Both the position numbers and the translations under genes were made by a program. A stretch of DNA of 36,209 nucleotides. Source: a virus. Below are positions 1-14,514 of the stretch, piece by piece. Numbering within the stretch: the stretch's first letter is position 1; the number at the start of each line of letters is the position of its first letter. The stretch is from positions 1 to 36,209 of IMG/VR virus record IMGVR_UViG_3300017771_000042; one strand, given 5' to 3'. The notes under the pieces were generated by a model. That model had not been told where the DNA came from and ran no database searches. It was given only the letters and a program-made list of their open reading frames with translations.

Positions 1-49
1 TAAGTTTATTCTCTGTTAAGAATTTTCTTAAGTTAAAGTTATCTTTCAT
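1..49 (-). CDS. Partial gene start, tagged N-terminus
   Basis: Only the first 16 codons are inside the window; the gene continues past the left edge. They read MKDNFNLRKFLTENKL. The segment FLTE-NK ends in LxE followed by Asn-Lys, the same ending seen in the tags at 13065 and 13348 (IILENK). I infer a member of the same tagged protein set. The ATG lies 19 bases after the stop of the 465-residue gene, so it is the next gene of the leftward operon. Function cannot be told from 16 residues. Confidence 0.6.
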   Translation of the reverse strand, partial: MKDNFNLRKFLTENKL

Positions 50-68
50 ATTATTAGTATTATTATTA

Positions 69-1466
69 TTATGCTTCTGGTTCTTCTGCTGGTTCTTCAA
101 AATCTATCTCTTCACCGCCTAAGTCAGCTTCTCCTTCTTCTCCTCCTAGAACGCCTCCTTCATCTCCTTCTCCTTCTTCACCGCCTGTTGCGCCTCCTTC
201 TCCACCAGGAAAGTCTCCTCCGCCACCGCCACCGCCTCCGGTGTCAGTATCAGCAGGTTCTCCTTCTCCAGCTCCACTCATTGGTCCTTCTTTATATAGG
301 ATAGCTAATTTATCTAATGCCTGTTGATAATCACTTATCTTATTTATATAATATCTTTTACCCATTATTTGAGTTTCAAAGCCATCACCTAACCATTTCA
401 TAATATACTCTTGACCGTTTTTAAGATTGATTCTAAACTCAGTAGGTCTAGGAGATATCCAATCTATACTATCTACAAACTCTTTAAAGTCTTCAGTCTG
501 TAGTTTAATAATAGCTGCTTTTAGAGTAGGAAACTTAGCTAAGATAGTATCTGTAGCGTCTTCTAATATAGTTTCTTCTGGAGCACTTGTATCTGGTTCT
601 TCTTCTGGTGTAGGTTCTTCTTCATCTTCTACTTCATCTAGCATAGATTCACTTACATAGCCTCGTTTTTTTACATATGCCATATATTCTGCAAACTTTC
701 TGTCATTTTCTTTTTCGTCAAAATCATCATCGTCATCATCTAACTCTTTATTAATATCTTTGACGATAAAATTACCAATAGCATCTCCATCAGGAAAGCC
801 CATCTTAGCTAGTATAGGATTTTCTTCTTTGACGTAATTTAAATCAACTTGTTCTCCTGCTACATCAACATTAATTTCAAATTCTTTTCCAGATTTAGTA
901 TCTACAAGTCTATAAAACATTGTATCAGATATAGATGATTGGTCGTTAGCAAATATTTTTATATTTTTTACTTTACCAACAGTCAGTTCATCTCCTCTTT
1001 CTTCTTTTATAAGAGTAGCGTGTTTAACGAACATTTCATGTAGCTCTGCTAAAGATGCTCTATTTCTAATTAAAGAATATTGATCAGGTCTTTCAGTTCT
1101 TAAGTATCTTTGTAATTTTCTAAAGTTAGTTCTTATAAGCTCAAATAAATCTCTAGCTGCTTTATCAGTTCTAACATCTTTATCTCTCATTAATGATTTT
1201 ATATCTTCAACAATATCTTTAAAATCATCATACATTTTTTCAAATGATGCTATAGGAATAACTTTATGAGTTACTTCTCCAGTTTCTTTATTTTCACCAT
1301 CAAACTTCATATATCGAGACATGTCATTACTGAAGAAATCTTTAGGATGTAGTTTACCGTATCTTTTTTCGATAGCAGCTACAAACTCCTTTGGAAGGTC
1401 TTCTAGCTTTTTACGCTCTTGAATAGCAGCATATTCTTCTAAAATAAGTTTTTCTAATTTATGCAT
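69..1466 (-). CDS. Acidic protein, possible head/core protein
   Basis: 465 residues, not assigned to a family. The N-terminus MHKLEKLILEEY resembles the short LILE-type tag found on other genes here. A charged helical region follows (about 20-160), then a poly-Asp stretch near 240, an acidic Glu/Pro/Thr linker (about 275-305), and a Gly/Glu-rich tail with a run of eight Gly. This strongly acidic, low-complexity composition recalls phage scaffold or internal head proteins, but that is inference only. Its start overlaps the stop of the 760-residue gene by one base (TAATG), so the two are translationally coupled. An accessory portal or core protein is an alternative. Confidence 0.7.
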   Translation of the reverse strand: MHKLEKLILEEYAAIQERKKLEDLPKEFVAAIEKRYGKLHPKDFFSNDMSRYMKFDGENKETGEVTHKVIPIASFEKMYDDFKDIVEDIKSLMRDKDVRTDKAARDLFELIRTNFRKLQRYLRTERPDQYSLIRNRASLAELHEMFVKHATLIKEERGDELTVGKVKNIKIFANDQSSISDTMFYRLVDTKSGKEFEINVDVAGEQVDLNYVKEENPILAKMGFPDGDAIGNFIVKDINKELDDDDDDFDEKENDRKFAEYMAYVKKRGYVSESMLDEVEDEEEPTPEEEPDTSAPEETILEDATDTILAKFPTLKAAIIKLQTEDFKEFVDSIDWISPRPTEFRINLKNGQEYIMKWLGDGFETQIMGKRYYINKISDYQQALDKLAILYKEGPMSGAGEGEPADTDTGGGGGGGGDFPGGEGGATGGEEGEGDEGGVLGGEEGEADLGGEEIDFEEPAEEPEA

Positions 1467-3748
1467 TACTTCTTTTTCTTTTTGTAGCCTTTATGCCAAT
1501 GCTCGTTAGAAGTTTTAACATCTAATTCACTTACTGGTATATCTAATACTGTCTTTCCGTTTTCGAATAAAACATCATAATGAGTAACTACGTATTTATT
1601 TCCTTCTTTTACTAATGTGTGTTTTTCTGGAATGGTATTACCTTCACCATATTTTTCGTGGACTACTTTAGCAGCACAATCATGTTTATATCCAGGAGCT
1701 GATTCTTTGGATAATTTATCTAAGTATTTAGCTTGATTGCCATGTCCTTTAACAGACTTCTTTAATTGCTTTACAATCTTCTTAACTTGGCTTTTTTCTT
1801 TTTTATCAAGTTCAGCTTCTTCAACACCTTTAGTATTGATGAATATATGAGTAATATGATCTATGATTTCTTCTGCTGCTTCTCTAGTAGAGATATCGTC
1901 CTCATTAGCCATATTAATTATAATGTCATTAATAGCATCTCCATCTCCTCTACCTTCATCTAATTCTTGACCTTTACCTATATTGGAAGCTTTTTTAATC
2001 TTTTCTTGTTCAAGCTTCTTTTTAATATCTGTAAGTTTCTTTAAATGAGGTACTACTGATTTATCTCCTGCTTTATATTTTTTAGCAAGTCTTTTCATAG
2101 TATGAATTGTAGTATCATAAAGATCGTCTACATTTCTGCCTTCTTCTATATCATCTCTTCCATCCAACATAGCCTCTAATTTCCTAATAGCCATTTCTAA
2201 TGCTTCATCTTCTGATATTTCTGCTGTATGAGCTAGATTTCTGATTACTTGTTCTAAGTCTTCAAAAGCTGCTCTTACAAATCTATCACCATCTACTTCA
2301 TTTACATTTTCATTTTCAGCTTTGAGTTTTAGAAGTTTACTTGCTGAATGTCTTTTGATTTTACCGTTATCTACTAATTCAAAAAACTCTTCAAAATCAT
2401 GACCGGACTTTTTGTGTAGTGCTTGAAAAGAAGCATGTAAAGACTCTATACTATATTTTTTAGTATTTGGAAAATCGTCTGCTAAAGAATCTCCATATTC
2501 AGTAGATAAGTATTCTCTTTCAAATTCTTCGAGATCACTTTCTTCATTTACTTTATCGGTATAAGCCATATTAGTAGGATCGCCTTCTGAAGGTTTAATT
2601 TTAGTAGTCATACCGTCTCCTTCTAAAGCTAATTGATCTATAGCAGGTTGTTTTTCTTCTGAATCTAAATAATGATATGCTTTTTGCATATAGTCTTTAG
2701 CTAATATTAACTTAGATTGCCACCAGTTAGGAAAATCTACTTCACCATCGAAGTTATCATACTTTTGTAATTTTTTAACTAACTTAGCTGCATATTGAGC
2801 AGTTTCAAACGCTGTTGATTGTAACATATCAGGTTCATCATCTTCATGCCCGACATCCATATCTTCTTTTTTAATCATCTCTTTTTCTTCTGACATTGGA
2901 ATATTAGTATCTAAAATTTGTACCATATCACCTTCTAAATCATCTAATAGACCTGGATCATAATCTTCTTTTTTAAAGTACATAATTATACCGTCTGGGT
3001 CGTCGTTTATTTCATAATCTATATCGTATATATCATTAAAGATAACTTGAGCTTTATTTTGAGATGCAGCATCTTTAGATATTTTAATATAGTACATATT
3101 ATCAGGAGCTTCTTTAATATTTTCTCTCATTGTAGAAAAATGTTTAATTAGTTCATTTTTTAGTACATCAACGTTAACTAAAGCCTCTCCTGAAGGTTTT
3201 ACTCCTACATCTACTAATTCTTTATCGAAAGAAAAATCAGTTAGGTGTAACCTATCATCAGTTATATAAAATGAGAATTCATCTGTTGCTATATCTTTTT
3301 TATACTCTACATAAATCTCAAAAGAATTAGGTTCTATTCTTTTAGCTTTCATAGTACCTATTTCATCACCTGCTTCTTTTAAAGCTAAAGCTACTGCCTT
3401 ACCTACTTTTTTGGCAATACTTTTAGTTTCATCTATTGAAAATTTTATATCTTCTTTTATTTCTTGACCTTTTGTTGTATCTATTCCTGTAATATTAGGA
3501 TCACTTTTTAATCCCATAGCTGTTTTTCTGTCCATTTTAACTACTTTAGTATCGCCAGTCTTATCAGTAACAAACATAGTTTCTTCTGATTCAGCTATCT
3601 GTTTTTGTAAAGATTCTCTTAAGAGAGTAAGTTTTATGGTAGTTTCTTCTAAATCTGTGGTGGGTGTAGTTTTATATGCTCCGTTTTTAATTTTTTCTAA
3701 AGTAGATTCACATTTAGATAAACGGTCGTTTAGTTCTTTATAGGTCAT
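1466..3748 (-). CDS. Large multi-segment charged protein, possible core
   Basis: 760 residues, mostly Lys/Glu-rich helices (coiled-coil-like at 1-60 and about 540-640). A compact C-terminal segment (about 670-755) contains APGYKHDCAAKVVHEKYGEG and a following HYDVLFENG stretch. That segment looks like one that recurs in large T4-like phage proteins I remember from marine phages, of unknown role. It is followed by a poly-Lys end. There are no catalytic motifs or membrane segments. A TATTTATA element sits 26 bases upstream of the ATG in a 36-base intergenic gap, so it may begin a transcription unit with the 465-residue gene. A scaffold/core role is inference. Confidence 0.72.
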   Translation of the reverse strand: MTYKELNDRLSKCESTLEKIKNGAYKTTPTTDLEETTIKLTLLRESLQKQIAESEETMFVTDKTGDTKVVKMDRKTAMGLKSDPNITGIDTTKGQEIKEDIKFSIDETKSIAKKVGKAVALALKEAGDEIGTMKAKRIEPNSFEIYVEYKKDIATDEFSFYITDDRLHLTDFSFDKELVDVGVKPSGEALVNVDVLKNELIKHFSTMRENIKEAPDNMYYIKISKDAASQNKAQVIFNDIYDIDYEINDDPDGIIMYFKKEDYDPGLLDDLEGDMVQILDTNIPMSEEKEMIKKEDMDVGHEDDEPDMLQSTAFETAQYAAKLVKKLQKYDNFDGEVDFPNWWQSKLILAKDYMQKAYHYLDSEEKQPAIDQLALEGDGMTTKIKPSEGDPTNMAYTDKVNEESDLEEFEREYLSTEYGDSLADDFPNTKKYSIESLHASFQALHKKSGHDFEEFFELVDNGKIKRHSASKLLKLKAENENVNEVDGDRFVRAAFEDLEQVIRNLAHTAEISEDEALEMAIRKLEAMLDGRDDIEEGRNVDDLYDTTIHTMKRLAKKYKAGDKSVVPHLKKLTDIKKKLEQEKIKKASNIGKGQELDEGRGDGDAINDIIINMANEDDISTREAAEEIIDHITHIFINTKGVEEAELDKKEKSQVKKIVKQLKKSVKGHGNQAKYLDKLSKESAPGYKHDCAAKVVHEKYGEGNTIPEKHTLVKEGNKYVVTHYDVLFENGKTVLDIPVSELDVKTSNEHWHKGYKKKKK

Positions 3749-3774
3749 CTTTAGTTGTTTATGTAGGTATATAG

Positions 3775-3782
3775 TATAAATA
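3775..3782 (-). promoter_or_regulatory. Candidate late promoter TATTTATA
   Basis: On the minus strand this 8-mer reads TATTTATA, preceded by C, 26 bases before the ATG at 3748, within a short intergenic gap. The same 8-mer occurs before five other intergenic starts in this window. T4 late promoters read TATAAATA; this differs at two central positions and is its exact reverse complement, so orientation must be tested. Confidence 0.4.
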
Positions 3783-3784
3783 GA

Positions 3785-4411
3785 TTAACTATTCCAAATA
3801 ACGTTTTTGAACTTTTCCGGAGTTAGTCCGAAATAGTCTGTTCGCCATTTGGTCTGATCGAAAAAATCAAGGTTAATCCATTCATTTTTCTTTTTCCATA
3901 ATTTATTAGCTATTTCATCCCAATCTTGATTAAGAACAAAGTACTCTAATTCTTGTTTTTTTTCCATTACAGCATCATATTCAAAAGCATCCCATTCATA
4001 ATGAAATACTTCAAATACAGCATCAGGAGATACATAATCTATCGAAATATCTATACCCCATTTAGGTTTCATCTTTGTAAGCTTATATAGCATTGGATTA
4101 ACATCCGCAATGGCTTCCAATTGATCATATGCATTAGATTTAAATCCTTTCCTTTCAAATATATCTGAGTGATTAATATGAGCTCCTTCTCTTTTATCCC
4201 ATACGAACCAATCGTATCTTAGACAATCTTCATGTCTTCTCTCTATAGGTCGGAATCCATTCTTAGATAAAAAGACTTGTTCAGCCTTTGTAAGATGATA
4301 ACCATTTTGATCAAATAAGTCTACACATGTACTATCTTTTAGTACCTCTATCTCGTCAGAGGGGTCTAAATAGTAACCTTGTTCGTGAAGCTTATTATCA
4401 GTTAATGTCAT
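3785..4411 (-). CDS. Uncharacterised 208-residue phage protein
   Basis: 208 residues, hydrophilic and rich in Trp, Tyr, Phe and Asp. It has no signal peptide, membrane segment or motif I can assign. The C-terminal half has an alternating aromatic/acidic pattern (for example YDAVMEKKQELEYFVLNQDW), typical of a compact folded protein rather than a linker. Its start overlaps the previous gene's stop by four bases (ATGA at 4408-4411). It sits among basic, Cys-containing small proteins in the presumed head-associated block. Function unknown. Confidence 0.7.
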   Translation of the reverse strand: MTLTDNKLHEQGYYLDPSDEIEVLKDSTCVDLFDQNGYHLTKAEQVFLSKNGFRPIERRHEDCLRYDWFVWDKREGAHINHSDIFERKGFKSNAYDQLEAIADVNPMLYKLTKMKPKWGIDISIDYVSPDAVFEVFHYEWDAFEYDAVMEKKQELEYFVLNQDWDEIANKLWKKKNEWINLDFFDQTKWRTDYFGLTPEKFKNVIWNS

Positions 4412-4764
4412 TTCTTACCGCCTTTCATGTTAGCACACCAGTGGTACATTTTTCCTTTTTCACCACCGTATTTTTTAGCTTTAGCTCTGAGTGAAGATAC
4501 TGAGCCTTTACATGATGCTCCTGATTTTTTAACTCTGCCTGGTCTAGACTTACCTTTCTTTTTACCGTCTTTGTAATTTTCTCCTAATAGCTCTTCTATC
4601 ATTACTTCTCTAACTAATTGAGCTAATTCATTTTTACTTGAAAGATACGCAGCTATAGCCATCTCTTTTCTTTTCTTTTGAGACTTTCCTTTAAATTGAG
4701 GAGCATTAGATTTTTTAAAATCATCTACATAATCTCCAGCGTCTGCTTTCTTTCCTAATGGCAT
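4408..4764 (-). CDS. Small basic Cys-containing phage protein
   Basis: 118 residues, strongly basic (about a quarter Lys plus Arg). The central helix (about 43-60) ends in MIEELLGENYK, which resembles the LE-ENK ending of the tags here, but is internal. The C-terminal part holds GKSRPGRVKKSGASCKGS and then GEKGKMYHWCANM, with Cys85 and Cys110. I recall this basic K/G/C-H-W-C segment as a recurrent C-terminal domain in T4-like phage proteins, function unknown. Nucleic-acid or head-interior binding would fit the charge, but that is inference. The gene starts four bases after the Cys-rich gene's stop. Confidence 0.7.
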   Translation of the reverse strand: MPLGKKADAGDYVDDFKKSNAPQFKGKSQKKRKEMAIAAYLSSKNELAQLVREVMIEELLGENYKDGKKKGKSRPGRVKKSGASCKGSVSSLRAKAKKYGGEKGKMYHWCANMKGGKK

Positions 4765-4768
4765 ATTA

Positions 4769-5242
4769 TTAAGTTATAGGTCCTCCTCCTACCCAAGCAT
4801 CACAGGATCTAGCACCTGCACACTTAAACCAGAAGAATTCACAGAACCCTATATTTGATTGTTTTACAATTTTTTCTCCTTGTTCCCCAATAGCCTTAGC
4901 TATCTTTTTAAGAGTACTTGGCTTTTGATTAAAAGCCGAACAATTACTACATCTAGAAGTTTTAGCATGCTCTACTGTAGTATCCCACATTTCAGCTTTA
5001 TCTTCCCAAAACTTTTTAGAGCCTTTTTCGTCTTCAGGATTTAATGGACCGTATCTATACTCTTTTACGGTTACGTTTCTACTCAAAGTATTAAGATCTA
5101 AGTCAGTAATAGAGTCCATAGGTTTATTTTTTTTAAACCTCATCTCTTTTTCTTTTCTTAAAGCAGCAGGAGTGTTGTTTAGCCCATAGTCTGAAAGTTT
5201 ACCTTCTATGACTAATTCTTTAATTACGTCTTTTAGTTTCAT
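4769..5242 (-). CDS. Tagged Cys-rich protein, possible zinc fold
   Basis: 157 residues from the ATG at 5242. I prefer this start because it forms an ATGA overlap with the upstream stop and places MKLKDVIKELVIEGKL, a tag-like sequence, at the N-terminus; an in-frame ATG five codons earlier is less likely. The body carries TVKEYRYGPLNPED, then Cys98-x2-Cys101, then Cys134, Cys141 and Cys147 within an aromatic segment (GFCEFFWFKCAGARSCDAW). The cysteine spacing suggests metal binding. I recall this domain from marine T4-like genomes without a known role. If the tag is cleaved after VIE, the mature protein begins at Gly14. Confidence 0.75.
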   Translation of the reverse strand: MKLKDVIKELVIEGKLSDYGLNNTPAALRKEKEMRFKKNKPMDSITDLDLNTLSRNVTVKEYRYGPLNPEDEKGSKKFWEDKAEMWDTTVEHAKTSRCSNCSAFNQKPSTLKKIAKAIGEQGEKIVKQSNIGFCEFFWFKCAGARSCDAWVGGGPIT

Positions 5243-6021
5243 TTTTGTCCTTTCCAAATTTCACCTCTTCTACATCTAACTACTGCCCCTGAAGCATAAG
5301 CTGATGGCCAGGTATCATATTTACGTTTAGCTATTCTAGTACATCTATCGTCTTTTTCTTCTAGAGTGTTTTTATTTTGCATTTCAGCTATAGTACCTAC
5401 AGTTAGGTTACGTATATCCTCTTTAGTTACTTTTTTATATCCAGATCCGTAAGGTGCTGCTTTACCATCTTGAGGGTCAGATGTTTCAGTATATTGAGTT
5501 ACCTTGGGTACTTTAGATCTCATTTTATCTTTAGGGTCACTAAGTCTAGCTCCTCTTTCTTTAGCATCTTTAGACATTCTCCCTTTAACTAAATTACCTG
5601 ATTTAGTAAAGTAATGTCCTGCTGGAGCTCCTTTTGTTTCTTGCTTTAGTGCATTACCTGCTTTTTTAGCATCTTTATATGCATTAGAGTTTTTATGAGA
5701 AGATTTTTTTCCTGCTTTTTTCTTAGCATTAATATTAGCCCAAAGGCCTTCTTTCTTAACTGTTGCTTTTTTTGTATTTTTCACGACTGTCTTTCCTTTA
5801 CTCCCTGCTTTCTTTTTCTTTGCAGCAGTAGCGGCTCTTTGGCCTTTAGTTAAACTCTGTGCTTTTGCTTTTGGTAAACACCTGTCAGGGTTCTTTTTAT
5901 TTTTAGAAGTACCGCAAGGTCCTGCTATATTACCAGAAGAAGAGATACGAACCCATTTCTCTTTTTTAAACCAGTCTCTTAAAGACTCTAATGTAATATT
6001 TTTTACTTCACTACTGGTCAT
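5239..6021 (-). CDS. Lys-rich, histone-like phage protein
   Basis: 260 residues from the ATG at 6021, chosen because it makes a TAATG overlap with the upstream stop; a longer in-frame reading would run back through that gene. Residues about 15-40 contain WVRISSSGNIAGPCGTSKNK, followed by NPDRCLPKAKAQSLTKGQRA and a long Lys/Ala/Gly-rich stretch (about 65-145). The GPCGTS...DRCLPKAKA signature is a recurrent phage domain of unknown function. Near the C-terminus are two more cysteines (DDRCTRIAKRKYDTWPSAYASG and VRCRRGE). The composition suggests binding to packaged DNA or RNA, which is inference. Confidence 0.78.
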   Translation of the reverse strand: MTSSEVKNITLESLRDWFKKEKWVRISSSGNIAGPCGTSKNKKNPDRCLPKAKAQSLTKGQRAATAAKKKKAGSKGKTVVKNTKKATVKKEGLWANINAKKKAGKKSSHKNSNAYKDAKKAGNALKQETKGAPAGHYFTKSGNLVKGRMSKDAKERGARLSDPKDKMRSKVPKVTQYTETSDPQDGKAAPYGSGYKKVTKEDIRNLTVGTIAEMQNKNTLEEKDDRCTRIAKRKYDTWPSAYASGAVVRCRRGEIWKGQK

Positions 6022-6383
6022 TATTGTCCTATAGTTTCTGAATGCATCATTAACATTCTTATTACAATTCCTGCCATTATACCAAAAATTATCCATAAAG
6101 CTCTGTTAACTCCTGCTTTCCAGCTTTGAAGTTCATTTAACTTACTTAAATTATCAGCATAAAGCTCAGCTCTAGATTCATGGTATATACGACTTTCAGT
6201 ATTCTTATTAGTATTTACTATGACCCCATCGTCAGGATTAAGTAACGTACGTTTTAAATCTGATACGTCCTCTTTCATTTTTTGAAAATCATTAGCCATC
6301 TGCTTTAACTCTCCATTCGGCATGTGAGTTTTAACATGTTTTATTTCTGCTAATACAGATTCAAGTAAATCTTTTTGGGTCAT
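6021..6383 (-). CDS. C-tail-anchored coiled-coil membrane protein
   Basis: 120 residues. The N-terminal region (about 1-50) is amphipathic and contains SVLAEIKHVKTHMPNGE, then LKEDVSDLK-type heptads. A single hydrophobic segment at about 95-113 (ALWIIFGIMAGIVIRMLMM) ends near the C-terminus, so the bulk is likely on one side of the inner membrane. Size and topology are compatible with a holin-like or membrane-anchored accessory protein, but there is no diagnostic motif. A TATTTATA element lies 14 bases upstream of the ATG. Its stop overlaps the next gene's start by one base. Confidence 0.68.
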   Translation of the reverse strand: MTQKDLLESVLAEIKHVKTHMPNGELKQMANDFQKMKEDVSDLKRTLLNPDDGVIVNTNKNTESRIYHESRAELYADNLSKLNELQSWKAGVNRALWIIFGIMAGIVIRMLMMHSETIGQ

Positions 6384-6397
6384 TGCAAATAGTTTAT

Positions 6398-6411: not shown

Positions 6412-6990
6412 TTATTCTAAACGTTTACGTACTAAGGTAGAATATTCTAAAACTTTTTTAGTAATAGTTTCCTCGTATTGTTTTTTATTATGTTTCCAAT
6501 CTTCTACGTCACCTTGCTCAGTAACAAATGTATCAACTTCAGATATTTTATCTTTTAACCATAATTCTAAATCATATAAGAAGCCTTCCATATTATTCTG
6601 CATCATTTGCTTCTCATACTGTTCAAACAGTCCTGCTTTCCTTAAAGAACTTTCGTATTCAACTGTACAAGGATCAAAACAAAAACCATGAATACGGTAC
6701 ATCTTTTTAGCTAAATGGTGTCTTAAAGGACCCCCGCATTTAGGACAAGTAAGTGGTAATCTTGATGCTGACTTAGCTTTATCTAGCTTAGTTATATTCT
6801 GCTTAAGACCATTTTTTATAGTCCAAGTTTTGCCATTTTCTTCCCATATGTCTCCCTCCGTATGGTGTTCAGAAGATTTTCTGTACCCAAGTTGGGTTTT
6901 TGTTTTAGCAGTAAAATCTTTTTTAACTAAGTTTCTTACCCTTTCAACGTCTGATTTTTTAAACTCTTTTTTTAGTAAAGATTCACTCAT
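6412..6990 (-). CDS. Zinc-ribbon-like phage protein
   Basis: 192 residues. A Lys-rich N-terminal helix is followed by HTEGDIWEENGKTWTIKNG (about 43-61). A four-cysteine cluster comes next, Cys82-x2-Cys85 (CPKC) and Cys104-x3-Cys108 (CFDPC), consistent with a zinc ribbon. A long charged helical C-terminus (about 110-192) completes it. I remember similar proteins in marine T4-like genomes, with no assigned role. The start overlaps the stop of the HAD-type gene by eight bases. It could bind nucleic acid or be a structural adaptor; the sequence does not decide. Confidence 0.72.
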   Translation of the reverse strand: MSESLLKKEFKKSDVERVRNLVKKDFTAKTKTQLGYRKSSEHHTEGDIWEENGKTWTIKNGLKQNITKLDKAKSASRLPLTCPKCGGPLRHHLAKKMYRIHGFCFDPCTVEYESSLRKAGLFEQYEKQMMQNNMEGFLYDLELWLKDKISEVDTFVTEQGDVEDWKHNKKQYEETITKKVLEYSTLVRKRLE

Positions 6991-7528
6991 AACCTAACTC
7001 TTTTAATTTTTCTAATACATGGTTAACGTTTCCGTCTTTACATCTAATAGCTATACCGCCTTTAGAAGCCCATTCATTTATATTTGATTTTTTATCGTCT
7101 ATTAATATACTATTTTCATTTGCGTATCTCTGCTTATCTTTTGAATATGCAAAAATAACTTTTGGTTTTGGATTGAGGTTATTTTTAACCCATAAATTCT
7201 TACCGAGTCGAGAATTGTTATCTCTAGAAGGAGAAGTAAGTAAATGTGGTCTATAAGGAGAAATAAAATTCCATAACTCTTTACCTTGGGGCATAAAACC
7301 CATACCCACCCAAAATCTTACACCTACTTCTACATCTACAAGATTCCAAAAAGCAGGTAAACCTTTTTGCTTCTCATATTCTTGTGGATGCATACCAGTA
7401 AAATGTTCAAACCTTCCTTCAAAGTTAGTTAAAACTCCATCCATGTCGCAATAAATTTGATATGGAGGTTTTTCTTTTTGTTCTGGGATAGGGTAAGCTT
7501 CCAATAAGTCTACTATACTTGTATTCAT
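6983..7528 (-). CDS. HAD-superfamily 5' nucleotidase-like phosphatase
   Basis: 181 residues. HAD motif I is D28-M-D30-G-V-L (YCDMDGVLTNF) with the nucleophile Asp28. Motif II is Thr/Ser near 98-99 (LLTSPSRDN), motif III a Lys near 120-123, and motif IV Asp144-Asp145 (SILIDDKKSN). This layout matches the 5'(3')-deoxyribonucleotidase-like phosphatases common in phages, which dephosphorylate nucleoside monophosphates; exact substrate unknown. The N-terminus (MNTSIVDLLEAYP) carries an LLE sequence before the fold begins near residue 23, so a short tag-like extension is possible. The start shares an ATGA overlap with the 557-residue gene, suggesting joint expression in a nucleotide-related set. 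Confidence 0.82.
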   Translation of the reverse strand: MNTSIVDLLEAYPIPEQKEKPPYQIYCDMDGVLTNFEGRFEHFTGMHPQEYEKQKGLPAFWNLVDVEVGVRFWVGMGFMPQGKELWNFISPYRPHLLTSPSRDNNSRLGKNLWVKNNLNPKPKVIFAYSKDKQRYANENSILIDDKKSNINEWASKGGIAIRCKDGNVNHVLEKLKELGYE

Positions 7529-9198
7529 AACCTTTGTTTTATTCCTAATGCAGGTAATCTTTTTCTCATTAAGTTTAAAATATTTTCATAATCATCTTTA
7601 GGAAGATTTTGATCATCAAAATATTGTTTAACTACGTCTGCAAAAGGACGTTTTTCTTTTTTAGCACGAAAATACATTCCTTGAATATTCGCATCAACTT
7701 CTTTTGCTAATTTAAAATAATCTCCTTTAGGTAGTGCTCCAGTTTTTACTAATGCTCTTACTAGTGAATCATCATCCATATATTTACCTGATTTAAGGTT
7801 ATCAGAATCACTATGGGTAAGATGTTCTATTTCATGTCTAACTATATCTTTTAAAGTAAAAGCTATATCTTTGAATGCATCAGGTACTTCTTTAGGGTTG
7901 TACGAGACTATAACTCTTATACTATCATTCTGTTCTCCGGTTTCATCATAATCAGCATCACCATCAACAGCAAAATATTCGACTGAGCCGGTAGGTATAA
8001 AATCACCAAAAACATTAAAATCTAAATCATCGGTTTCATAATTTTTATAAAAAGAAGTTTCGCCATTTTTTAAAGACTTAAACAAATCAGAGGATACTTG
8101 ATTACTTATTTTATCATATCTTCCTTCAGCCATAACCTTTTTTTTATTTTTGTAATTATCTTCCCAGTTTCTGAAAGTAATATTTCCTTTTAAGTACGCT
8201 TCTTTTTCTATCTCTAACAGATCATCATCTTCATTTGTATTAGTAGTACCAATATTACCTAATCTACCTTCTAAGTTTTGCATATGATGAATCATCTCGT
8301 GTACAAAAGATCTTACTATATCTTTAGGATGTCTACCTTCTACAAATAAAACTATTTCTTTTACATTAGGATCATAGTAAGCAGTTTTGCCAAAAAAGTT
8401 TGAGGCATTAGCTTCGTCTCTATTGATCTTTATTTCAGGTAAAGGAGTTACTTTCATACCCTCATCTATCATATACTCTAATACTGAAGCCATATATTTA
8501 GTATATTTAGGAACTTCAGATTTTTCAGTAACACTTTTTGAAAACGGAGCTTCAGATGTAAACATTTCCTCAAAAAGATTTTCCATCTTTTCGTTCATTA
8601 TTTCGGATATGATATTATCTTTAAGCATCTTTAATATAGATAGTAGTTCTTCTCTATTAAGTTGCGAAGGAAAGAAGTCTCTTAATTCATCTAAATTACC
8701 ACTTAAAGCAGCTTGTCTCAATTGTGAAGCCCTTACATTATTTCCTTTAGCAGCAGGTATAACTAAACCCTGTACATGAGGAGTATTTGTAAAAGTAGTA
8801 ATTCTTCTTAAATCGATTAAATCTTCTTCACTCCTTATTCCTGTAATAGCATAAAAGTTATCATTAGTATTTGCTTTAGCATAATCTTTAGCAGCAAACA
8901 TAGGATTCTTTTCACCATCCATAACTTCTATTCCAGGTAAATATTTAGAATATATTTTCCATATAGCTATAGATTCTCCTTTAGTTATTCCATTTCTTTC
9001 TCCTCCTCCAGGAAATACTATTACCTTATTAATTTTATCTACTATACTCTTTTTTCCAGAAAGAGAAGATGAACCAGCATCTTTATAATTATCTTTTGTA
9101 TATACCTGACCATTATGAGTACCGTTAAGTAAACTTTTAACGACTTCGAAATGACCTCTATGAGGTGGTTTAAATGCTCCTGGATATAATGCTATCAT
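7525..9198 (-). CDS. Nucleotidylyltransferase fused to two metallopeptidase-like domains
   Basis: 557 residues with three apparent modules. Residues 1-185 form a HIGH-type nucleotidylyltransferase (NMNAT/PPAT-like): YPGAFKPPHRGHFEVV gives HRGH at 13-16, and NVRASQLRQA near 154-163 matches the family's second nucleotide-binding motif. Residues about 230-345 contain H300-E-M-I-H304-H with Glu residues at about 329-333 (EIEKEAY), an HExxH zinc-peptidase pattern. Residues about 360-557 contain a second one, H455-E-I-E-H459, with KEVDANIQG at about 499-507. All expected metal-binding residues are visible in both. Fold assignment of the peptidase modules is inference. Substrates are unknown. It is far longer than a stand-alone nucleotidylyltransferase. 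Confidence 0.8.
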   Translation of the reverse strand: MIALYPGAFKPPHRGHFEVVKSLLNGTHNGQVYTKDNYKDAGSSSLSGKKSIVDKINKVIVFPGGGERNGITKGESIAIWKIYSKYLPGIEVMDGEKNPMFAAKDYAKANTNDNFYAITGIRSEEDLIDLRRITTFTNTPHVQGLVIPAAKGNNVRASQLRQAALSGNLDELRDFFPSQLNREELLSILKMLKDNIISEIMNEKMENLFEEMFTSEAPFSKSVTEKSEVPKYTKYMASVLEYMIDEGMKVTPLPEIKINRDEANASNFFGKTAYYDPNVKEIVLFVEGRHPKDIVRSFVHEMIHHMQNLEGRLGNIGTTNTNEDDDLLEIEKEAYLKGNITFRNWEDNYKNKKKVMAEGRYDKISNQVSSDLFKSLKNGETSFYKNYETDDLDFNVFGDFIPTGSVEYFAVDGDADYDETGEQNDSIRVIVSYNPKEVPDAFKDIAFTLKDIVRHEIEHLTHSDSDNLKSGKYMDDDSLVRALVKTGALPKGDYFKLAKEVDANIQGMYFRAKKEKRPFADVVKQYFDDQNLPKDDYENILNLMRKRLPALGIKQRL

Positions 9199-9200
9199 AT

Positions 9201-9785
9201 TTATAAATCTTTGGGAAGAGTTTCATCTTCTAAGTCAAATCCGTGATCGTCAACTCCACATACCGAATCAGCAAGTTTTTTAAGTTCTTCTTTTGAATTA
9301 ATAGTAGTCACACTTTCTACAGTTACGTTTTTACCATCGGTTATAATACTGAAATTTTTATTCCAATTAGTAACCGCTCTTTTACACATACCGTTTTTAG
9401 CTACTGAAAAGTGCATAGGATTTTCTACTCCTTCTACAGCATTTAAATAATAAGCAATTTTATTACTATCATACTCTTGTTTAAATTTTATATCTTCATT
9501 ATCCACAGCTGCCTGTTCAGGATCATCGTCAAAAACATAATCCATTATCTCTAATCCTTCTTTAATTTTTACTTTATGTAAATAATAAGGAAAAGGTATT
9601 TTAGATTCCATATAAAATATTCCTATAGCTCTATCTAAAGCTTGTGCTATAGTACCTACGTGAAAAGTTGGATCACCAGAAAAACTACTCTTTCTATCCG
9701 ACACATGGTAACTAATTTCAGGTAACACTTTAGAAGGTGCTTTTATTCCCGTTTTTTCAAGTAATATTTTAGATAGTTTTATCAT
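9201..9785 (-). CDS. Tagged protein, possibly ADP-ribosyltransferase-like
   Basis: 194 residues starting MIKLSKILLEKTGIK, a clear copy of the recurrent tag with LLE followed by Lys. After a short linker comes ISYHVSDRKSSFSGDPTF and then HVGTIAQALDRAIG (about 24-54). A Tyr-His-x-Ser/Thr strand followed by a loop and a helix is how many ADP-ribosyltransferase-fold proteins begin, but I cannot place a full catalytic triad, so the assignment is weak. T4 packages the ADP-ribosyltransferase Alt in its capsid by a similar N-terminal tag, which makes the combination worth testing. The start overlaps the kinase stop by ATGA. Confidence 0.72.
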   Translation of the reverse strand: MIKLSKILLEKTGIKAPSKVLPEISYHVSDRKSSFSGDPTFHVGTIAQALDRAIGIFYMESKIPFPYYLHKVKIKEGLEIMDYVFDDDPEQAAVDNEDIKFKQEYDSNKIAYYLNAVEGVENPMHFSVAKNGMCKRAVTNWNKNFSIITDGKNVTVESVTTINSKEELKKLADSVCGVDDHGFDLEDETLPKDL

Positions 9786-10717
9786 AAAAACGCTTGTACT
9801 TTTTGATCTATTTCAGCAGGAGATGAATGTTGTAGTAATTCTTGAAACGTAGGATTAAATACCATATCAGCAATACTATCTAATACTGCGTCATTATCTC
9901 TATCAGTATTAACTTTTTTATCTCTATACTTTTTAACTACATCTCTTAACTTATCTTCTCCAGGTCCAGTACCTATCTTTTGATAAGTTTTTAAGAAAGC
10001 TGTTTTAAGAGCTTTATCTTCTGATCTATTATCTTTATTCCAATCTACGTTTACTACAGCTTTGTTAAATTCTTGCTCTTCTTCTTGAGACATTACTACT
10101 GGTTTGAAGAAAGAGCTTTTACCTGCTCCTGTTTTTTCATTATAAGCTTTTAAGTAATCTTTTATTCCTGTAGTACCGTTTTTAGCTGCAGTATTAAATG
10201 CTTCTATTTCTTTTTTAAATTCTCCTCCTCTATCATTTACAAAAATAGAAAGATTACCTTTAAGTTTCTTTTTAAAGTCTCCTATCTTTTGATAAGCGTT
10301 TCTCCAAGTTAAAAAAACTGAAGAAGCAGGTATGTTTCTACCTCTTTGAAAGTTAGATATATAAGATATCATAGGATGAGTATACACCATAACCATATAT
10401 ACGTCATAACCGCCTTTAAGAAGCTTGTTTAAGTTTTCATCAAACTTAGCCCCTGATGCTGTAGTATCCCAAACTAGGCTAATTTTATCTTCTGCTGCTG
10501 CTAGTACGTCCTTCTCTACTTGACGACTGGCTGCCCCTAGATTGTTGAAGTACGGATGATCCTTGTCCTCTACGTATTTGTCTGGGTTGAATTGTGTTAG
10601 GCTGTCGAGGTTGAGTTTGTTGAGAAGGTACGACTTGCCTGATCCCGCTCCTCCTGCCATTATTACGGCTTTGGGTCGGTTGGTTTGTTCTGCCAATATT
10701 ATATCTGATAGTTTCAT
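9782..10717 (-). CDS. Tagged P-loop kinase, zeta-toxin-like
   Basis: 311 residues. The N-terminus MKLSDIILAEQTNRP is a tag ending in LAE. It leads directly into PKAVIMAGGAGSGKSYLLNK, a Walker A P-loop at about 22-29, then FNPDKYVED. DTTASGAKFDENLNKLL (about 84-100) and a basic segment with FQRGRNIPASS (about 123-133) follow. This order resembles zeta-toxin/AAA_33-type kinases, which phosphorylate small molecules such as UDP-N-acetylglucosamine; the substrate here is unknown. The first 78 codons overlap the lipoprotein gene in another frame and are visibly more GC-rich (CTC, AAC, GAC, GCG) than the remainder. No antitoxin-like partner is evident. Confidence 0.83.
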   Translation of the reverse strand: MKLSDIILAEQTNRPKAVIMAGGAGSGKSYLLNKLNLDSLTQFNPDKYVEDKDHPYFNNLGAASRQVEKDVLAAAEDKISLVWDTTASGAKFDENLNKLLKGGYDVYMVMVYTHPMISYISNFQRGRNIPASSVFLTWRNAYQKIGDFKKKLKGNLSIFVNDRGGEFKKEIEAFNTAAKNGTTGIKDYLKAYNEKTGAGKSSFFKPVVMSQEEEQEFNKAVVNVDWNKDNRSEDKALKTAFLKTYQKIGTGPGEDKLRDVVKKYRDKKVNTDRDNDAVLDSIADMVFNPTFQELLQHSSPAEIDQKVQAFL

Positions 10718-11111
10718 TACTTTTTAATCTTGGTTGTGTTCTTCCTCTAGGGCTGTTAACTCTAATTCTAGTTTTTGGTTTAACCGACGGTTTATAAGGT
10801 ATGTTATTATAAATAGGGCGGCGGACGTTCCAATTAAAGTAAGGCCACTGCCAACTGCTGTATCTAAAGTTCCAGTAGTTATTGTAGTTCCAACCGTACC
10901 AGTTATAGTTGTAATCCAAGAAATAGGATCTGTTGAAATCATAGGATCTATTAAAGTATTGACTACTGTAAGGGACTTGTATTGTATCTCCTGATTTATT
11001 AACTGCAAGTACGTGTTCAATATCATAACCTTTATTTTTTGTTATCAGAGTGTAACTCCCACAACTATATAAAGATAAGAAAATAAATACATATATCAAA
11101 CTTTTTTTCAT
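10485..11111 (-). CDS. Lipoprotein with Tyr/Asn/Trp-rich body
   Basis: 208 residues. Residues 1-16 are a lipoprotein signal peptide (MKKSLIYVFIFLSLYS) with lipobox L-Y-S-Cys17, so the mature protein should be lipid-anchored in the cell envelope. Residues about 50-95 are rich in Tyr, Asn, Trp and Phe. Residues about 105-208 are rich in Arg, Gln, Ser and Pro, ending GRTSSSRR. This build recalls small envelope proteins of Flavobacteria. An outer-membrane spanin-like lysis role or superinfection exclusion is possible. The start overlaps the nuclease stop by ATGA. The last 77 codons lie inside the kinase gene in a different frame, an unusually long overlap. Confidence 0.7.
   Translation of the reverse strand: MKKSLIYVFIFLSLYSCGSYTLITKNKGYDIEHVLAVNKSGDTIQVPYSSQYFNRSYDFNRSYFLDYNYNWYGWNYNNYWNFRYSSWQWPYFNWNVRRPIYNNIPYKPSVKPKTRIRVNSPRGRTQPRLKSNETIRYNIGRTNQPTQSRNNGRRSGIRQVVPSQQTQPRQPNTIQPRQIRRGQGSSVLQQSRGSQSSSREGRTSSSRR
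10724..11026 (-). CDS. Nested reading frame with one membrane segment
   Basis: An alternative frame inside the lipoprotein gene encodes 100 residues, or 72 from an internal ATG at 10942. The N-terminal part is low-complexity Thr/Ile/Gly, probably a shadow of the Tyr/Asn/Trp codons. The last 40 residues, however, look like a membrane helix (TLIGTSAALFIITYLI) followed by a charged helix (NRRLNQKLELELTALEEEHNQ). It stops six bases before the kinase ATG and in the same frame, a spacing typical of coupled genes. A lipoprotein and a membrane helical protein in overlapping frames recall spanin pairs, but chance is a serious alternative. Confidence 0.28.
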   Translation of the reverse strand: MILNTYLQLINQEIQYKSLTVVNTLIDPMISTDPISWITTITGTVGTTITTGTLDTAVGSGLTLIGTSAALFIITYLINRRLNQKLELELTALEEEHNQD

Positions 11112-11890
11112 ACTTTTACTGTAGTTGGGTAACTATTATAAATAGGTTCAGTATTTGGGTTTTCTAATTCGTATAATTTATAAATAAGTTTAAACAGTTC
11201 GAAATTTTTTTCAATCTCATCTATCTGTAGCAGCTTCCATCCTTTACCTTGTATAACTTTTTTCTGTTTTGACGGCCCTCTTGATTGTGCTTTTAGCCAA
11301 AGTATAGCAGTTCTATCAATCTTTATATCTCTACTCTCCTCAAGTCCTTTTGCGTAAGAGGCTAGTTGTAGATCATATGACTTATGTATACTGTTAGACG
11401 TTTTAATATCTATTAGCCACACTTCTCCGTTCATCTTACATACTATATCAGCTGTACCTGCAAACTTATGTTCGTCAGACCATACAAATTGTTCTGAAGA
11501 TATAAGCTCTGGTTTGTAAGTTTTCCAAAAATCAGCAAACTTAAGTATCATCTCCCAAACTATCTGGGAGTATTTAGCTCTACCGTAATCATCCATCCAA
11601 CTAACTTCTTTTCCTTCTACTAAGTCTTCAGCTGCTTCATGTACCTGAGTGCCTTCCTTACCTGCTTTACGCATAATAAGATCGGCGTTATGCCCAACGT
11701 CCTTCATCCATGTTTCGAAGAACTTATTCTTGGGCATGTATTGGAGTATAGTTGTTACGGACGGGTAATATACTCCTTCGCCTCTCTTATAGACTCTGCG
11801 GTCTAAAAAATTAATTTGCTTTAAATCAGGGTTAAAGTCAAGTCTTTTTTTCTCGTTTTGTTCGAGGATATTCATACCTTGTTTAATCAT
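11108..11890 (-). CDS. PD-(D/E)XK nuclease, RecB/Cas4-like
   Basis: 260 residues. Visible nuclease motifs, in order: G-T-Q-V-H84 (the RecB-type upstream His), FAGTAD148, WLID161-I-K163-T and Q175-L-A-S-Y179. This is the GxxxH, D, (D/E)xK, QxxxY order of the RecB/Cas4/MGME1-like exonuclease family, which degrades DNA from ends. It is the size of a stand-alone phage exonuclease. It lies directly after the primase with an ATGA overlap, suggesting a role in replication or recombination. The ATG at 11890 is preferred for that overlap; a second ATG five codons in is possible. Confidence 0.85.
   Translation of the reverse strand: MIKQGMNILEQNEKKRLDFNPDLKQINFLDRRVYKRGEGVYYPSVTTILQYMPKNKFFETWMKDVGHNADLIMRKAGKEGTQVHEAAEDLVEGKEVSWMDDYGRAKYSQIVWEMILKFADFWKTYKPELISSEQFVWSDEHKFAGTADIVCKMNGEVWLIDIKTSNSIHKSYDLQLASYAKGLEESRDIKIDRTAILWLKAQSRGPSKQKKVIQGKGWKLLQIDEIEKNFELFKLIYKLYELENPNTEPIYNSYPTTVKV
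11137..11144 (-). promoter_or_regulatory. TATTTATA inside nuclease 3' end
   Basis: Minus-strand CTATTTATA, 25 bases upstream of the lipoprotein ATG at 11111 but inside the nuclease coding sequence. Spacing matches the intergenic copies, so it could serve the lipoprotein and kinase. It also occurs by chance elsewhere in coding sequence, so support is weak. Confidence 0.25.
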
Positions 11891-12810
11891 AGGTCTAGTT
11901 TGTGCAGCATTATACCTGAAATGTCAAGTTTCTGAGCTGATTGAATATGTTCGGTAAAAGGTTTAAAGCCCATTTCGGATGGGTCTTTATCGGGTAAGTC
12001 AACTAAGAATACTCTTTTACCTTGGTTAAGAAATTTTTCTCCTATCTCTAACGCTCTATTTTTTGCGTCAGTATCTAGGGCAATATAGATATCTTTTACT
12101 TTACTTGTAATAATTTTTTTATATAGTGAGGTTGATATACTTTTACCTAATAGAGGAATAGCGTTTCGTCTGATAGCCATTGCATCAAAAACGCCTTCAC
12201 ATAAGATGATTGGTTGATTCCAGTTTATTAGATTTTCAAAGAATATTATGTCTTTGCTTGTTTCTGGATTTTTGTACTTAAAATAGTTGCCATCATAAGA
12301 TCGTGCAACAAAGAAGTTGAGTGTATTGGATTCAGAATAACTTGGGATAATAACTCGTCCTCCATAGTCTCCAGATGTGCAGTATCCAATGCTATATTTA
12401 ATAAAATCATTATCGGAAAGTCCTCTTGCATATAAGTACCTTTTAATTAGATTTGCTGTAACTGAAGTAGGAGATGAATTATAAAGTGGTTGATACTCCT
12501 TGGGTAGTTCTATAATAGATAGTCCTTTAAATTCTATAAAAGAACCTTTTGGTAGATACTTTAAGATTTCAGATGCTTGATTTTTAGGAGTTTTAAGTTG
12601 ATATAGTAGAGAACGAATAGTTCTTCCTCTTGTTTGACACACCCAACATTCCCAGAAGTTCTTGCCTTCTTCGTTGGTATGCATATTAATTTCTAACTTA
12701 GGTTTGCGATGATTACAAAAAGGACAATGAAAAGCATAATTATCTCTAGCTCTCTTATAACTTTTGCCCAATATGTTTTCAATGGATCCTAAAAGGAAAG
12801 TATAATCCAT
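11887..12810 (-). CDS. DNA primase, DnaG-type (T4 gp61-like role)
   Basis: 307 residues. An N-terminal zinc-binding domain has Cys29-x2-Cys32 (CPFC) and Cys55-x2-Cys58 (CWVC), the CHC2-like arrangement of DnaG primases. A TOPRIM core follows, with Glu205 in IILCEGVFDAMAIRR and Asp246-x-Asp248 in IYIALDTDAKN, the metal-binding acid residues of the family. It lacks room for a DnaG C-terminal helicase-interaction domain, as expected for a compact phage primase. It makes RNA primers for lagging-strand synthesis. The helicase is not in the window. The start follows a 54-base intergenic stretch; the downstream nuclease overlaps its stop. Confidence 0.9.
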   Translation of the reverse strand: MDYTFLLGSIENILGKSYKRARDNYAFHCPFCNHRKPKLEINMHTNEEGKNFWECWVCQTRGRTIRSLLYQLKTPKNQASEILKYLPKGSFIEFKGLSIIELPKEYQPLYNSSPTSVTANLIKRYLYARGLSDNDFIKYSIGYCTSGDYGGRVIIPSYSESNTLNFFVARSYDGNYFKYKNPETSKDIIFFENLINWNQPIILCEGVFDAMAIRRNAIPLLGKSISTSLYKKIITSKVKDIYIALDTDAKNRALEIGEKFLNQGKRVFLVDLPDKDPSEMGFKPFTEHIQSAQKLDISGIMLHKLDL

Positions 12811-12864
12811 AACTCCAGTCCGTATCTTTAGGATAAGATAAGAACTAATTTTTTAATAGACAAC

Positions 12865-13065
12865 TTATATTTCGTTATTTTGTAATAGATCTCCTATTGC
12901 AGCAGATACAGATTGGTAGAGTAGGGTTCTGTTATCAACATCTAAATAATCTTCTAATTTGTTAGTAATAGCTTCAGCTAATTTAATAACATCATTATCA
13001 GATAGGTTAAGTTCTTCTCTTAGAACATAATTTTTATTTTCGAGTATTATTTTAGATAACTTCAT
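12865..13065 (-). CDS. Tagged 66-residue small protein
   Basis: Starts MKLSKIILENKNYVLREELN, a nearly ideal copy of the recurrent tag. The rest is a short helical acidic domain (KLAEAITNKLEDYLDVD, then LLYQSVSAAIGDLLQNNEI). If cut after IILE, the mature peptide is about 57 residues, similar in size to small T4 internal proteins. It is not recognised otherwise. Its neighbour at 13082 has the same tag but an unrelated body, which is the pattern expected if the tag, not the body, is conserved. There is no Shine-Dalgarno sequence upstream. Confidence 0.7.
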   Translation of the reverse strand: MKLSKIILENKNYVLREELNLSDNDVIKLAEAITNKLEDYLDVDNRTLLYQSVSAAIGDLLQNNEI

Positions 13066-13081
13066 GATCTCAATTTAATTA

Positions 13082-13348
13082 TTAACTTACGTCCATAGGA
13101 TAGACTTCTGCGTCATATCCTTTTTTTCTTAAGGCATCTGCAATATCTTGAACTTCGTCTGAAAGATACATAGCCCTACGAGGTACTTCTAAACCTGTGA
13201 TCTTTTTAATCATTTGAATTGCTTTATCTTCATCCTCTCTGCTTCTTTGCTTTTCTCCATTTATAGAAATAGAATAAAGAGTACTACCAGGGTCGGTATA
13301 AGTTAAAGTAATGCTTTTATTTTCCAATATGATATCTGTTAATTTCAT
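13082..13348 (-). CDS. Tagged 88-residue small protein
   Basis: Starts MKLTDIILENKSITLTYTDP; the first eleven residues differ from the 66-residue neighbour at only two positions (Thr4 and Asp5), while the rest is unrelated. The body has a beta-like start (TLYSISINGEKQ) and a helical end (LSDEVQDIADALRKKGYDAE). Predicted processing after IILE would leave about 79 residues. The ATG overlaps the stop of the 45-residue basic gene as ATGA. Function unknown; a capsid-internal cargo role is inference from the tag. Confidence 0.7.
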   Translation of the reverse strand: MKLTDIILENKSITLTYTDPGSTLYSISINGEKQRSREDEDKAIQMIKKITGLEVPRRAMYLSDEVQDIADALRKKGYDAEVYPMDVS

Positions 13349-13482
13349 TTTCCTTGTCCTCTATATAATTTTTTATAGTTGCGAGAAGTCTTTAACTTTG
13401 ATGTTTTAGACTTGGCATGAACACCTGGTCTCTTTCTCTTAGGTTTATCTATATAATTACCAACTGTTAATCCTCTTGCCAT
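13345..13482 (-). CDS. Conserved 45-residue basic phage protein
   Basis: Reads MARGLTVGNYIDKPKRKRPG, then VHAKSKTSKLKTSRNYKK and ends LYRGQGK. The KRKRPGVHAK-SKTSKLK-SRNYKK-YRGQG pattern recurs in many T4-like phage genomes as a very small gene; its role is unknown to me. It is strongly basic, so nucleic-acid or ribosome binding is conceivable. The ATG lies 16 bases inside the end of the upstream gene and the TGA overlaps the next ATG (ATGA). Position and sequence together make it a convincing gene despite the length. Confidence 0.8.
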   Translation of the reverse strand: MARGLTVGNYIDKPKRKRPGVHAKSKTSKLKTSRNYKKLYRGQGK

Positions 13483-13757
13483 ATTTTAACAACTAAATCA
13501 CCTGTTCCTTTAATTAAACGGTGATAGGTTTCTTTAGGTATAAATAGCTTATCTTTTAGTAACTCACGGGGTATATCGTTGTCTAATTGAAAAGACCAAT
13601 CGTTATCGTGTATAGCTTGAACATACCTATCTTCTTTATCTCTATGCCAAACAAATTCAAATGAAGGAGTGTCTTGAGAGAACTCTCTTATTAAATAACC
13701 GTCTTCTTTTTTTTCAGAATAAGGTCTACCAGTAACCTGAGAAGTTTGATGATCCAC
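13467..13757 (-). CDS. Small conserved phage protein, cupin-like
   Basis: 96 residues. The middle reads FEFVWHRDKEDRYVQAIHDN and continues WSFQLDNDIPRELL, then LFIPKETYHRLIKGTGDLVV. Short beta-strand-like segments with His residues in VWHRD and YHRL suggest a single-stranded beta-helix (cupin-like) fold. I recall this as a common small phage protein without assigned function. The first 32 bases overlap the upstream gene's 3' end in another frame. It might bind metal through the two His residues, which is inference. Confidence 0.75.
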   Translation of the reverse strand: MDHQTSQVTGRPYSEKKEDGYLIREFSQDTPSFEFVWHRDKEDRYVQAIHDNDWSFQLDNDIPRELLKDKLFIPKETYHRLIKGTGDLVVKIWQED

Positions 13758-14514
13758 CTAATGATTTCCAATAACGGCCTATATTACAAGACCAATAACC
13801 TGCTTTTGTTTTATCTTTCTTTTGAGCACATTTATGACGAGCTGCGAAAGACGCTCTAGCTCCTCTTTGCTTTAACTTAACTGAAAGACCAGTATCACCG
13901 AATGATACTTTTTTAACATTACCTTTCTTTGACTTAACGTAAACGTAGAACTTTTTAGATCCACCTCTTTTTGGTTTGTTAAGTGCAACTTTTTTACCTT
14001 TATATTCAGCTTCAGGAATATAATCTACAGATGCTTTAAGCATATCGAAACCATTATAGTCGAAAGTTTCATTCTGTAGGTTAACAGCTTTTCTAAAGTT
14101 CTCCATATTAATAGTACCGCCGATTGATTCGACAAGCTCTTTGACTAGATCATAATCGATCATTTCGTCTATACTCATAGCTTCGTCAATCGTATCCTCG
14201 TTTTCAATCATGTTATCAATCATGCAGCCTATTTCGAACAATGCATTATTGTGTTTGGGGGAAACCATAGGAAGATCTAAAGGAACTCTCATTCCATTAT
14301 AATCTCCATATTCCCCTATATCTGTTGTCTCTAAAAGTTCAATATCTTCTTCGCTAAGTTCGATTTCTTCGTTTCTATGCGCTTCTCTTGCCTCTTTAAA
14401 TAATTGTATAAAGGCATCAGAGTTATAACGGTAGACATGCTCATGCAATGATAGACCGTTATCTATATGATACTTTAAGGATGGGTATCCTAATACTTCT
14501 TTTAGTTTAATCAT
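13726..14514 (-). CDS. Phage protein with C-terminal DUF5872-like domain
   Basis: 262 residues. The N-terminus MIKLKEVLGYPSLKYHI is weakly tag-like but lacks the LE ending. An acidic middle follows (about 40-125). From about 170 the sequence YKGKKVALNKPKRGGSKKFY, then VKKVSFGDTGLSVK and ARASFAARHKCAQKKDKTKA, ending YWSCNIGRYW, matches a domain widespread in T4-like phages (I recall it as DUF5872), often fused to head or protease proteins. Function unknown. The Ser/Gly-rich end is read through into the next gene's start region. Start overlaps the upstream stop by eight bases. Confidence 0.78.
   Translation of the reverse strand: MIKLKEVLGYPSLKYHIDNGLSLHEHVYRYNSDAFIQLFKEAREAHRNEEIELSEEDIELLETTDIGEYGDYNGMRVPLDLPMVSPKHNNALFEIGCMIDNMIENEDTIDEAMSIDEMIDYDLVKELVESIGGTINMENFRKAVNLQNETFDYNGFDMLKASVDYIPEAEYKGKKVALNKPKRGGSKKFYVYVKSKKGNVKKVSFGDTGLSVKLKQRGARASFAARHKCAQKKDKTKAGYWSCNIGRYWKSLGGSSNFSGYW

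Follow-up and report, generated by a model that had tools for sequence, protein, structure and literature searches.

The stretch analysed here (the window) is a 36-kb fragment of 36,209 nucleotides from a marine T4-like phage (IMG/VR virus record IMGVR_UViG_3300017771_000042), whose genes are read on the minus strand. Several of its neighbouring genes encode unrelated bodies behind nearly the same hydrophobic N-terminal leader of 8–13 residues. These shared N-termini are most probably (probability of roughly 0.88) capsid-targeting sequences of the T4 type, which would load a changeable set of cargo proteins into the prohead. A preliminary description of the window had proposed this reading. 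It is now supported by an S77 prohead protease encoded by conspecific contigs, by the retention of an (I/L)xE motif and by the position of the leader outside the folded domain. The principle is known from T4; what is new is the sequence of the leader, the lineage that uses it, the breadth and turnover of the cargo and the link to enzymes found in cyanophage virions.

The seven shared N-termini reported in the preliminary description are all present, on six complete genes and on one that is cut off at the left edge. Five of them are MKLSKIILENK (13065), MKLTDIILENK (13348), MKLSDIILAEQ (10717), MIKLSKILLEK (9785) and MHKLEKLILEE (1466), all on the minus strand. The sixth, MKLKDVIKELVIEGK, starts at an ATG at 5242 within an open reading frame (ORF) whose first codon is a TTG at 5257, and the seventh, MKDNFNLRKFLTENKL, at an ATG at 49 in the gene that runs off the edge. 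Two starts had been missed: a related leader on a deoxyribonucleotidase (7528; MNTSIVDLLE↓AYP, the arrow marking the predicted cut) and a weaker leader-like start at 29139 (MKLDTLRKVIREEV). The pattern K[LI]xx[ILV][ILVF]xE is found at 5 of the 41 N-termini of the window, where 0.022 would be expected (Poisson P ~4e-11). A set of 112 related loci was gathered by scans with the kinase and the 465-aa protein of the window. Among their 895 non-redundant proteins the pattern starts 132, whereas 0.48 would be predicted from its frequency inside the proteins (19 in 211,097 positions), an enrichment of more than 200-fold. As these 895 proteins still contain mutual homologues, it is the count of unrelated bodies that provides independent evidence. 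When the sequence behind the leader is clustered by BLASTP, at least a dozen unrelated families result, among them the kinase, the 66-aa, 88–105-aa, 465-aa, Cys-rich and ADP-ribosyltransferase (ART)-like proteins, a protein-kinase-like 143-aa protein and a 284-aa protein encoded directly after the protease.

Synonymous codons vary inside the tag (Lys AAA/AAG 20/19, Leu TTA/CTA, Glu GAA/GAG), so that the peptide rather than the DNA is conserved, and an explanation of the shared starts at the DNA or RNA level was rejected on this ground. The tagged genes are neighbours, and recombination can spread short repeats, as would suit a similarity due to chance or to recent duplication of one short, functionless gene start. 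However, the enrichment extends over many contigs, protein conservation goes with synonymous variation and the leader is more strongly conserved than most of the body behind it, which leaves such an origin a negligible probability.

The cutting site of the T4 protease gp21 is (L/I)-x-E (PMC9026906). When leaders were chosen on their hydrophobic run alone (M..K[LI]xx[ILV][ILV][LF]; n=151), Glu was found at position 8 in 124 and at position 9 in 26, the sole exception being a lipoprotein signal peptide. Both registers (IILE or ILxE) satisfy (I/L)-x-E, which is thus present in 150 of the 151 leaders. The motif is retained while the residues flanking it vary. Among 22 aligned kinases, the Glu of the leader is invariant and the Ile at P3 nearly so, P2 being L, T, K or R. 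Since Glu and P3 are kept while P2 varies, and since two registers occur, this conservation pattern points to a protease site rather than to a frozen 8-mer. The amphipathic hydrophobic run of the leader, and the fact that the same bodies carry other leader styles, could also suit a helix by which the proteins dock or localise to some other common partner (for example the portal, the membrane or a late transcription complex), (I/L)xE then being incidental. The near-universal Glu in two registers that both fit the motif, the free variation of P2 in the kinase family and a matching site in the capsid protein make this very improbable.

This matching site, NMA(M/V)ILE↓NQAKQ, is found in the major capsid proteins of ten relatives, which begin like MEINNLLES, and in that of Flavobacterium phage vB_FspM_immuto_2-6A (hereafter immuto), the closest cultured relative found. 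It corresponds to the cargo tag IILE↓NK, which suggests that ILE↓N is the capsid cut site of the lineage. The T4 reference record shows the same relation between tag and capsid in another flavour: FLTE↓A in gp23, MKTYQEFIAE↓A in the internal proteins IPII and IPIII and MAKINELLRE↓S in gp24.

From right to left, the window carries tail and baseplate genes (gp6- and gp25-like), then a primase and an exonuclease, then the tagged genes at 13.3–0 kb. The baseplate wedge protein of immuto is 58% identical over its full length. The immuto map, collinear with the window in reverse orientation, runs through baseplate, tail fibres, small genes, primase, exonuclease, nucleotidyltransferase, deoxyribonucleotidase, large acidic proteins, terminase, portal, prohead protease, scaffold and major capsid protein; the window therefore stops just short of the head genes. 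Three conspecific contigs (L085, L086 and L090) are 99.6–99.8% identical to it over 4–11 kb. One of them, L085 (99.6% over 4.2 kb), extends past the left edge and there encodes terminase, portal, core proteins and a prohead protease (Pfam S77, PF03420, E=3.8e-33), a gp21-like enzyme such as the preliminary description had proposed to look for. PF03420 has no match in the window record itself, a result uninformative on absence, given that the record is fragmentary and that the control likewise gave no match. Tagged genes directly follow the protease in three relatives, the further leaders found immediately behind it being MKLSTLILENNN, MKLSELFLEDKR and MQLSSIILESDE. In a 191-kb relative, all five type-A/B leaders fall among the 32 head-region ORFs of 248 (P=2.7e-5), and six of the eight leaders of immuto lie in the head region (P=1e-4).

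Leaders and bodies are also exchanged. The 88-aa body has three different N-termini: MKLTDIILENK in the window, MKKSQLREIIRKELQ plus an insert in immuto gp094 and MRDNFDVHEWK... in another relative (L166). The partial gene at the left edge (MKDNFNLRKFLTENKL) is absent from L085, L086 and L090 and present in two near-identical contigs (L087/L088). A second recurrent leader style, MKKSQLRxIIKEEL, occurs in the same gene region (immuto gp072, gp080, gp094 and gp095; L085 9777-10034); it was kept apart from the leader set, (I/L)xE being inconsistent in it.

The likeness to T4 is close. There too, a leader of about 10 residues ending in (I/L)xE precedes the unrelated bodies of IPI, IPII and IPIII, and the genome encodes an S77 prohead protease and the same motif in the major capsid protein. 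IP genes of T-even phages were previously found by their leader. The leader differs, however (MKLSxIILE↓N here, MKTYQEFIAE↓A in the T4 internal proteins). Hydrophobic residues are kept in it, but it cannot be aligned confidently to MKTYQEFIAE, in which positions 4 and 7 are the targeting residues of IPIII. The gp24 leader MAKINELLRE shares its K(I/L)xx(L/I)(L/I)xE form. In contrast to the T4 internal proteins, the cargo here comprises far more families, several with enzyme folds, and the phages are related to immuto and not to coliphages. T4 Alt is a head-packaged ART whose N-terminus is trimmed after (I/L)xE (ITE-6). The ART-fold protein of the window differs from it in being small (194 aa), without an Alt-family match and weakly similar to RES/ParT/diphtheria-type ART folds.

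Independent support comes from cyanophage virions. Mass spectrometry listed 52 virion proteins of the T4-like cyanophage S-CREM2 (PMC10665884), the 219 genes of which were translated from its record. A strict rule ([FYL]xxF[LIMF]xE, ending no later than residue 12) picks out five genes, whose products were all detected in virions (P=6e-5 among non-tail genes): a SAM hydrolase (MKDFDSFLEE), gp13 (MKDLHSFLTE), an APH-like kinase ((V/M)KRFDAFLTE), gp136 (MQTFSMFFSE) and a cytidylyltransferase (MKNFSSFLTE). A looser rule selects ten genes, six of them detected (P=0.001), and (I/L)xE alone performs much more weakly (11/25, P=0.015); the hydrophobic context therefore matters. A Cas9-like nuclease of the virion list has RFASFMAE at residues 18–25. 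The NMNAT of S-SCSM1, found in virions by mass spectrometry (PMC9602691), starts with MKSFLQFLKE, and the same kind of leader is carried by the cytidylyltransferases of P-SSM2, S-CRM01 and S-SM2; a member of the cytidylyltransferase family is present in the virion of S-SM1 (PMC3037559). S-CREM2, S-SCSM1, S-SM1 and S-CRM01 resemble the window in encoding, close to late genes, proteins of the kinase and cytidylyltransferase/NMNAT types whose leaders end in (F/L/I)xE; these were detected in virions by mass spectrometry. Their leader, MKxFxxFLxE↓A, is unlike that of the window. As side observations, the S-CREM2 gene block gp12, gp13 and gp14, including the virion Cas9-like nuclease, is found with T4-like leaders in L153/L152, and S-CRM01 (L158) has the comparable leaders MKKLDQFLTE and SLDSFIKE.

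The authors of the S-CREM2 and S-SCSM1 proteomes left undecided whether such enzymes are packaged or co-purified and drew no link to targeting sequences (PMC10665884, PMC9602691); no paper in the literature searched, which mostly excludes subscription journals, states this link. The T4-style leaders of these enzymes argue for packaging. They offer an explanation for disputed metabolic enzymes that can be tested in existing spectra, by looking for N-termini located right after (F/I/L)xE.

The tagged proteins might instead be parts of the prohead core or scaffold only, anchored to the core by their leader and cleared by the protease, most of them never reaching the next host. In T4, the core proteins gp22 and gp67 are likewise substrates of gp21 (PMC9026906), and core genes surround those of the 465-aa acidic protein and of the 284-aa protein next to the protease; the former protein may be either a core part or cargo. 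By contrast, the kinase, ART-fold, nucleotidase and protein-kinase-like bodies have enzyme folds, for which a scaffold role is not apparent, the leader is located at the extreme N-terminus, ahead of folded bodies that would survive cutting, and cyanophage enzymes with such leaders occur in mature virions. A purely core function is therefore unlikely.

Under the capsid-targeting reading, the following model for the loading of the cargo can be proposed. Late in infection, the leader would draw each tagged protein into the prohead core. The S77 protease would then cut it after (I/L)-x-E while trimming the major capsid protein at its ILE↓N site, freeing mature cargo inside the head before DNA packaging. 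The cargo set would change between phages as the leader joins new bodies. The mature proteins may finally leave with the DNA and act on the new host, a weaker proposal for which Alt and IPI-III of T4 provide precedents. Such ejection followed by effector action of the kinase, the ART-fold protein and the nucleotidase is, by this analogy, rather probable. These enzymes and the small proteins would be candidate anti-defence or take-over factors, in the way that IPI-III of T4 turned out to inhibit restriction enzymes of type IV (PMC12373910). Polyvalent proteins and MuF- or portal-fused ART effectors are also head-packaged effectors with a predicted early action, and head-packaged ARTs have already been proposed broadly (PMC9503650). 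These carry their packaging signal as a structural domain fused to them, whereas here it would be a short, predicted cleavable leader on separate proteins.

Several points weigh against capsid targeting. Targeting, cutting and packaging are deduced by analogy with T4 and cyanophages, and sequence cannot by itself prove cleavage and targeting. The protease and the major capsid protein lie outside the 36-kb window record. The nucleotidyltransferase encoded at 7525-9198 has no leader (it starts MIALYPGAFKPPH), although its cyanophage counterpart is in virions. The MKKSQLRxIIKEEL style fits (I/L)xE less well. The strict rule that scored five out of five in S-CREM2 was framed after part of the data had been seen, though it follows T4 IPII/IPIII. 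The literature searched holds no virion mass spectrometry for the lineage of the window and no virion proteome of immuto.

On a wider scale, there is a slight preference for viewing cleavable capsid-targeting leaders as a general loading code of marine T4-like phages. Lineage-specific leaders would co-vary with the capsid site (FL(T/A)E↓A in T4 and cyanophages, ILE↓N here), and the enzymes (kinases, ART-fold proteins, NMNAT/cytidylyltransferases, nucleotidases, SAM hydrolase and Cas9-like nuclease) would be injected as a freely swapping set of first-minute effectors. The leader provides a sequence rule to predict which proteins of a phage are carried within the particle and hence are candidates for acting first on the host. 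The region described here is a probable locus of changeable cargo in uncultured marine phages of a widely sampled group.

Tagged and leader-like genes of the window
Feature	Coordinates	Strand	Remarks
Partial gene, type-B leader MKDNFNLRKFLTE↓NKL	1..49	-	Runs off left edge; homologous leaders on immuto gp076, gp077, gp092
465-aa acidic protein, leader MHKLEKLILE↓E	69..1466	-	Leader kept in homologues
157-aa Cys-rich protein, leader MKLKDVIKELVIE↓GK	4769..5242	-	
5'-3' deoxyribonucleotidase, leader MNTSIVDLLE↓AYP	6983..7528	-	phrog_2643 E=1.7e-22; leaders of homologues end in (L/I)xE
194-aa protein, likely ADP-ribosyltransferase fold, leader MIKLSKILLE↓K	9201..9785	-	AlphaFold model, structural matches
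311-aa P-loop kinase (zeta-toxin / polynucleotide-kinase type), leader MKLSDIILAE↓Q	9782..10717	-	PF06414, polynucleotide kinase fold
66-aa protein, leader MKLSKIILE↓NK	12865..13065	-	
88-aa protein, leader MKLTDIILE↓NK	13082..13348	-	Body with other leaders in relatives
150-aa protein beside baseplate genes, weaker leader-like helix MKLDTLRKVIREEV	28687..29139	-	immuto gp114; membership in tagged set uncertain

The kinase, ART-like and Cys-rich bodies agree with what the preliminary description had said of them, the ART assignment being of moderate strength. The kinase matches PF06414 (Zeta_toxin) with 46.3 bits for a curated cut-off of 22.3 (E=4.5e-12); polynucleotide kinases top its structural matches (Z 13.8), zeta toxin reaching Z 10.8. 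Untagged homologues were sought in bacterial genomes, where no relatives of the kinase were found. The structural matches listed for the 9201-9785 protein are mostly of the ART superfold (diphtheria-type, RES/ParT/MbcT folds, Tpt1, tankyrase and Arr). As the best Z is only 6.9 (with Foldseek E above 0.1), an ART fold is likely but not firm. This protein has no Pfam or PHROG family match, and so no sequence match to ARTs of the T4 Alt type. As relatives of this protein are few (three loci by direct scan, five aligned sequences once those next to kinases are included), confidence in its model is moderate. In the two AlphaFold models, the tag lies outside the folded domain, as pLDDT is below 50 at residues 1–11 of the ART-like protein and 5–9 of the kinase. 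The small tagged proteins have no Pfam or PHROG match, and neither Rfam matches nor tRNA genes were found in the window.

The start of the kinase gene is overlapped over more than 200 bases, in another frame, by a lipoprotein-like ORF (10485-11111, minus strand, MKKSLIYVFIFLSLYSCGSYTL...); similar lipoproteins are encoded upstream of the kinase, without overlap, in L112 and L114. A distant kinase is encoded near a nucleotidase-type protein with CDMDG/LDMDG in the T4-like phages HTVC008M of Pelagibacter (L146 19953-24519), where a nucleotidyltransferase is also nearby, and Melnitz of Methylophilales (L147 19950-21249). The leaders of these kinases differ yet keep (L/I)xE (MIPFILKE↓G and MKTFAELQE↓G). 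The 143-aa protein found behind a MKLSQIILE leader in L065 (1454-1885) and relatives has a glycine-rich loop like that of a protein-kinase N-lobe (GSGDYGSVYLL...KVTTDS), its Pkinase match (E=0.058) being below cut-off.

The product of the gene at 7525-9198 (minus strand) combines a nucleotidyltransferase-like N-terminus (weak CTP_transf_like match) with a region that contains two HExxH motifs (FVHEMIHHM and RHEIEHLTH) and matches Peptidase_M91 weakly. Its cyanophage counterparts are tagged and present in virions, and a separate gene with VHEYQHYL is found in L112. Finally, the tail protein encoded at 20860-22371 (minus strand) has long Ser/Thr/Pro repeats (TPSVTPS) and a C-terminal stretch that resembles a Hint/intein-type domain and ends with NNILTHN.

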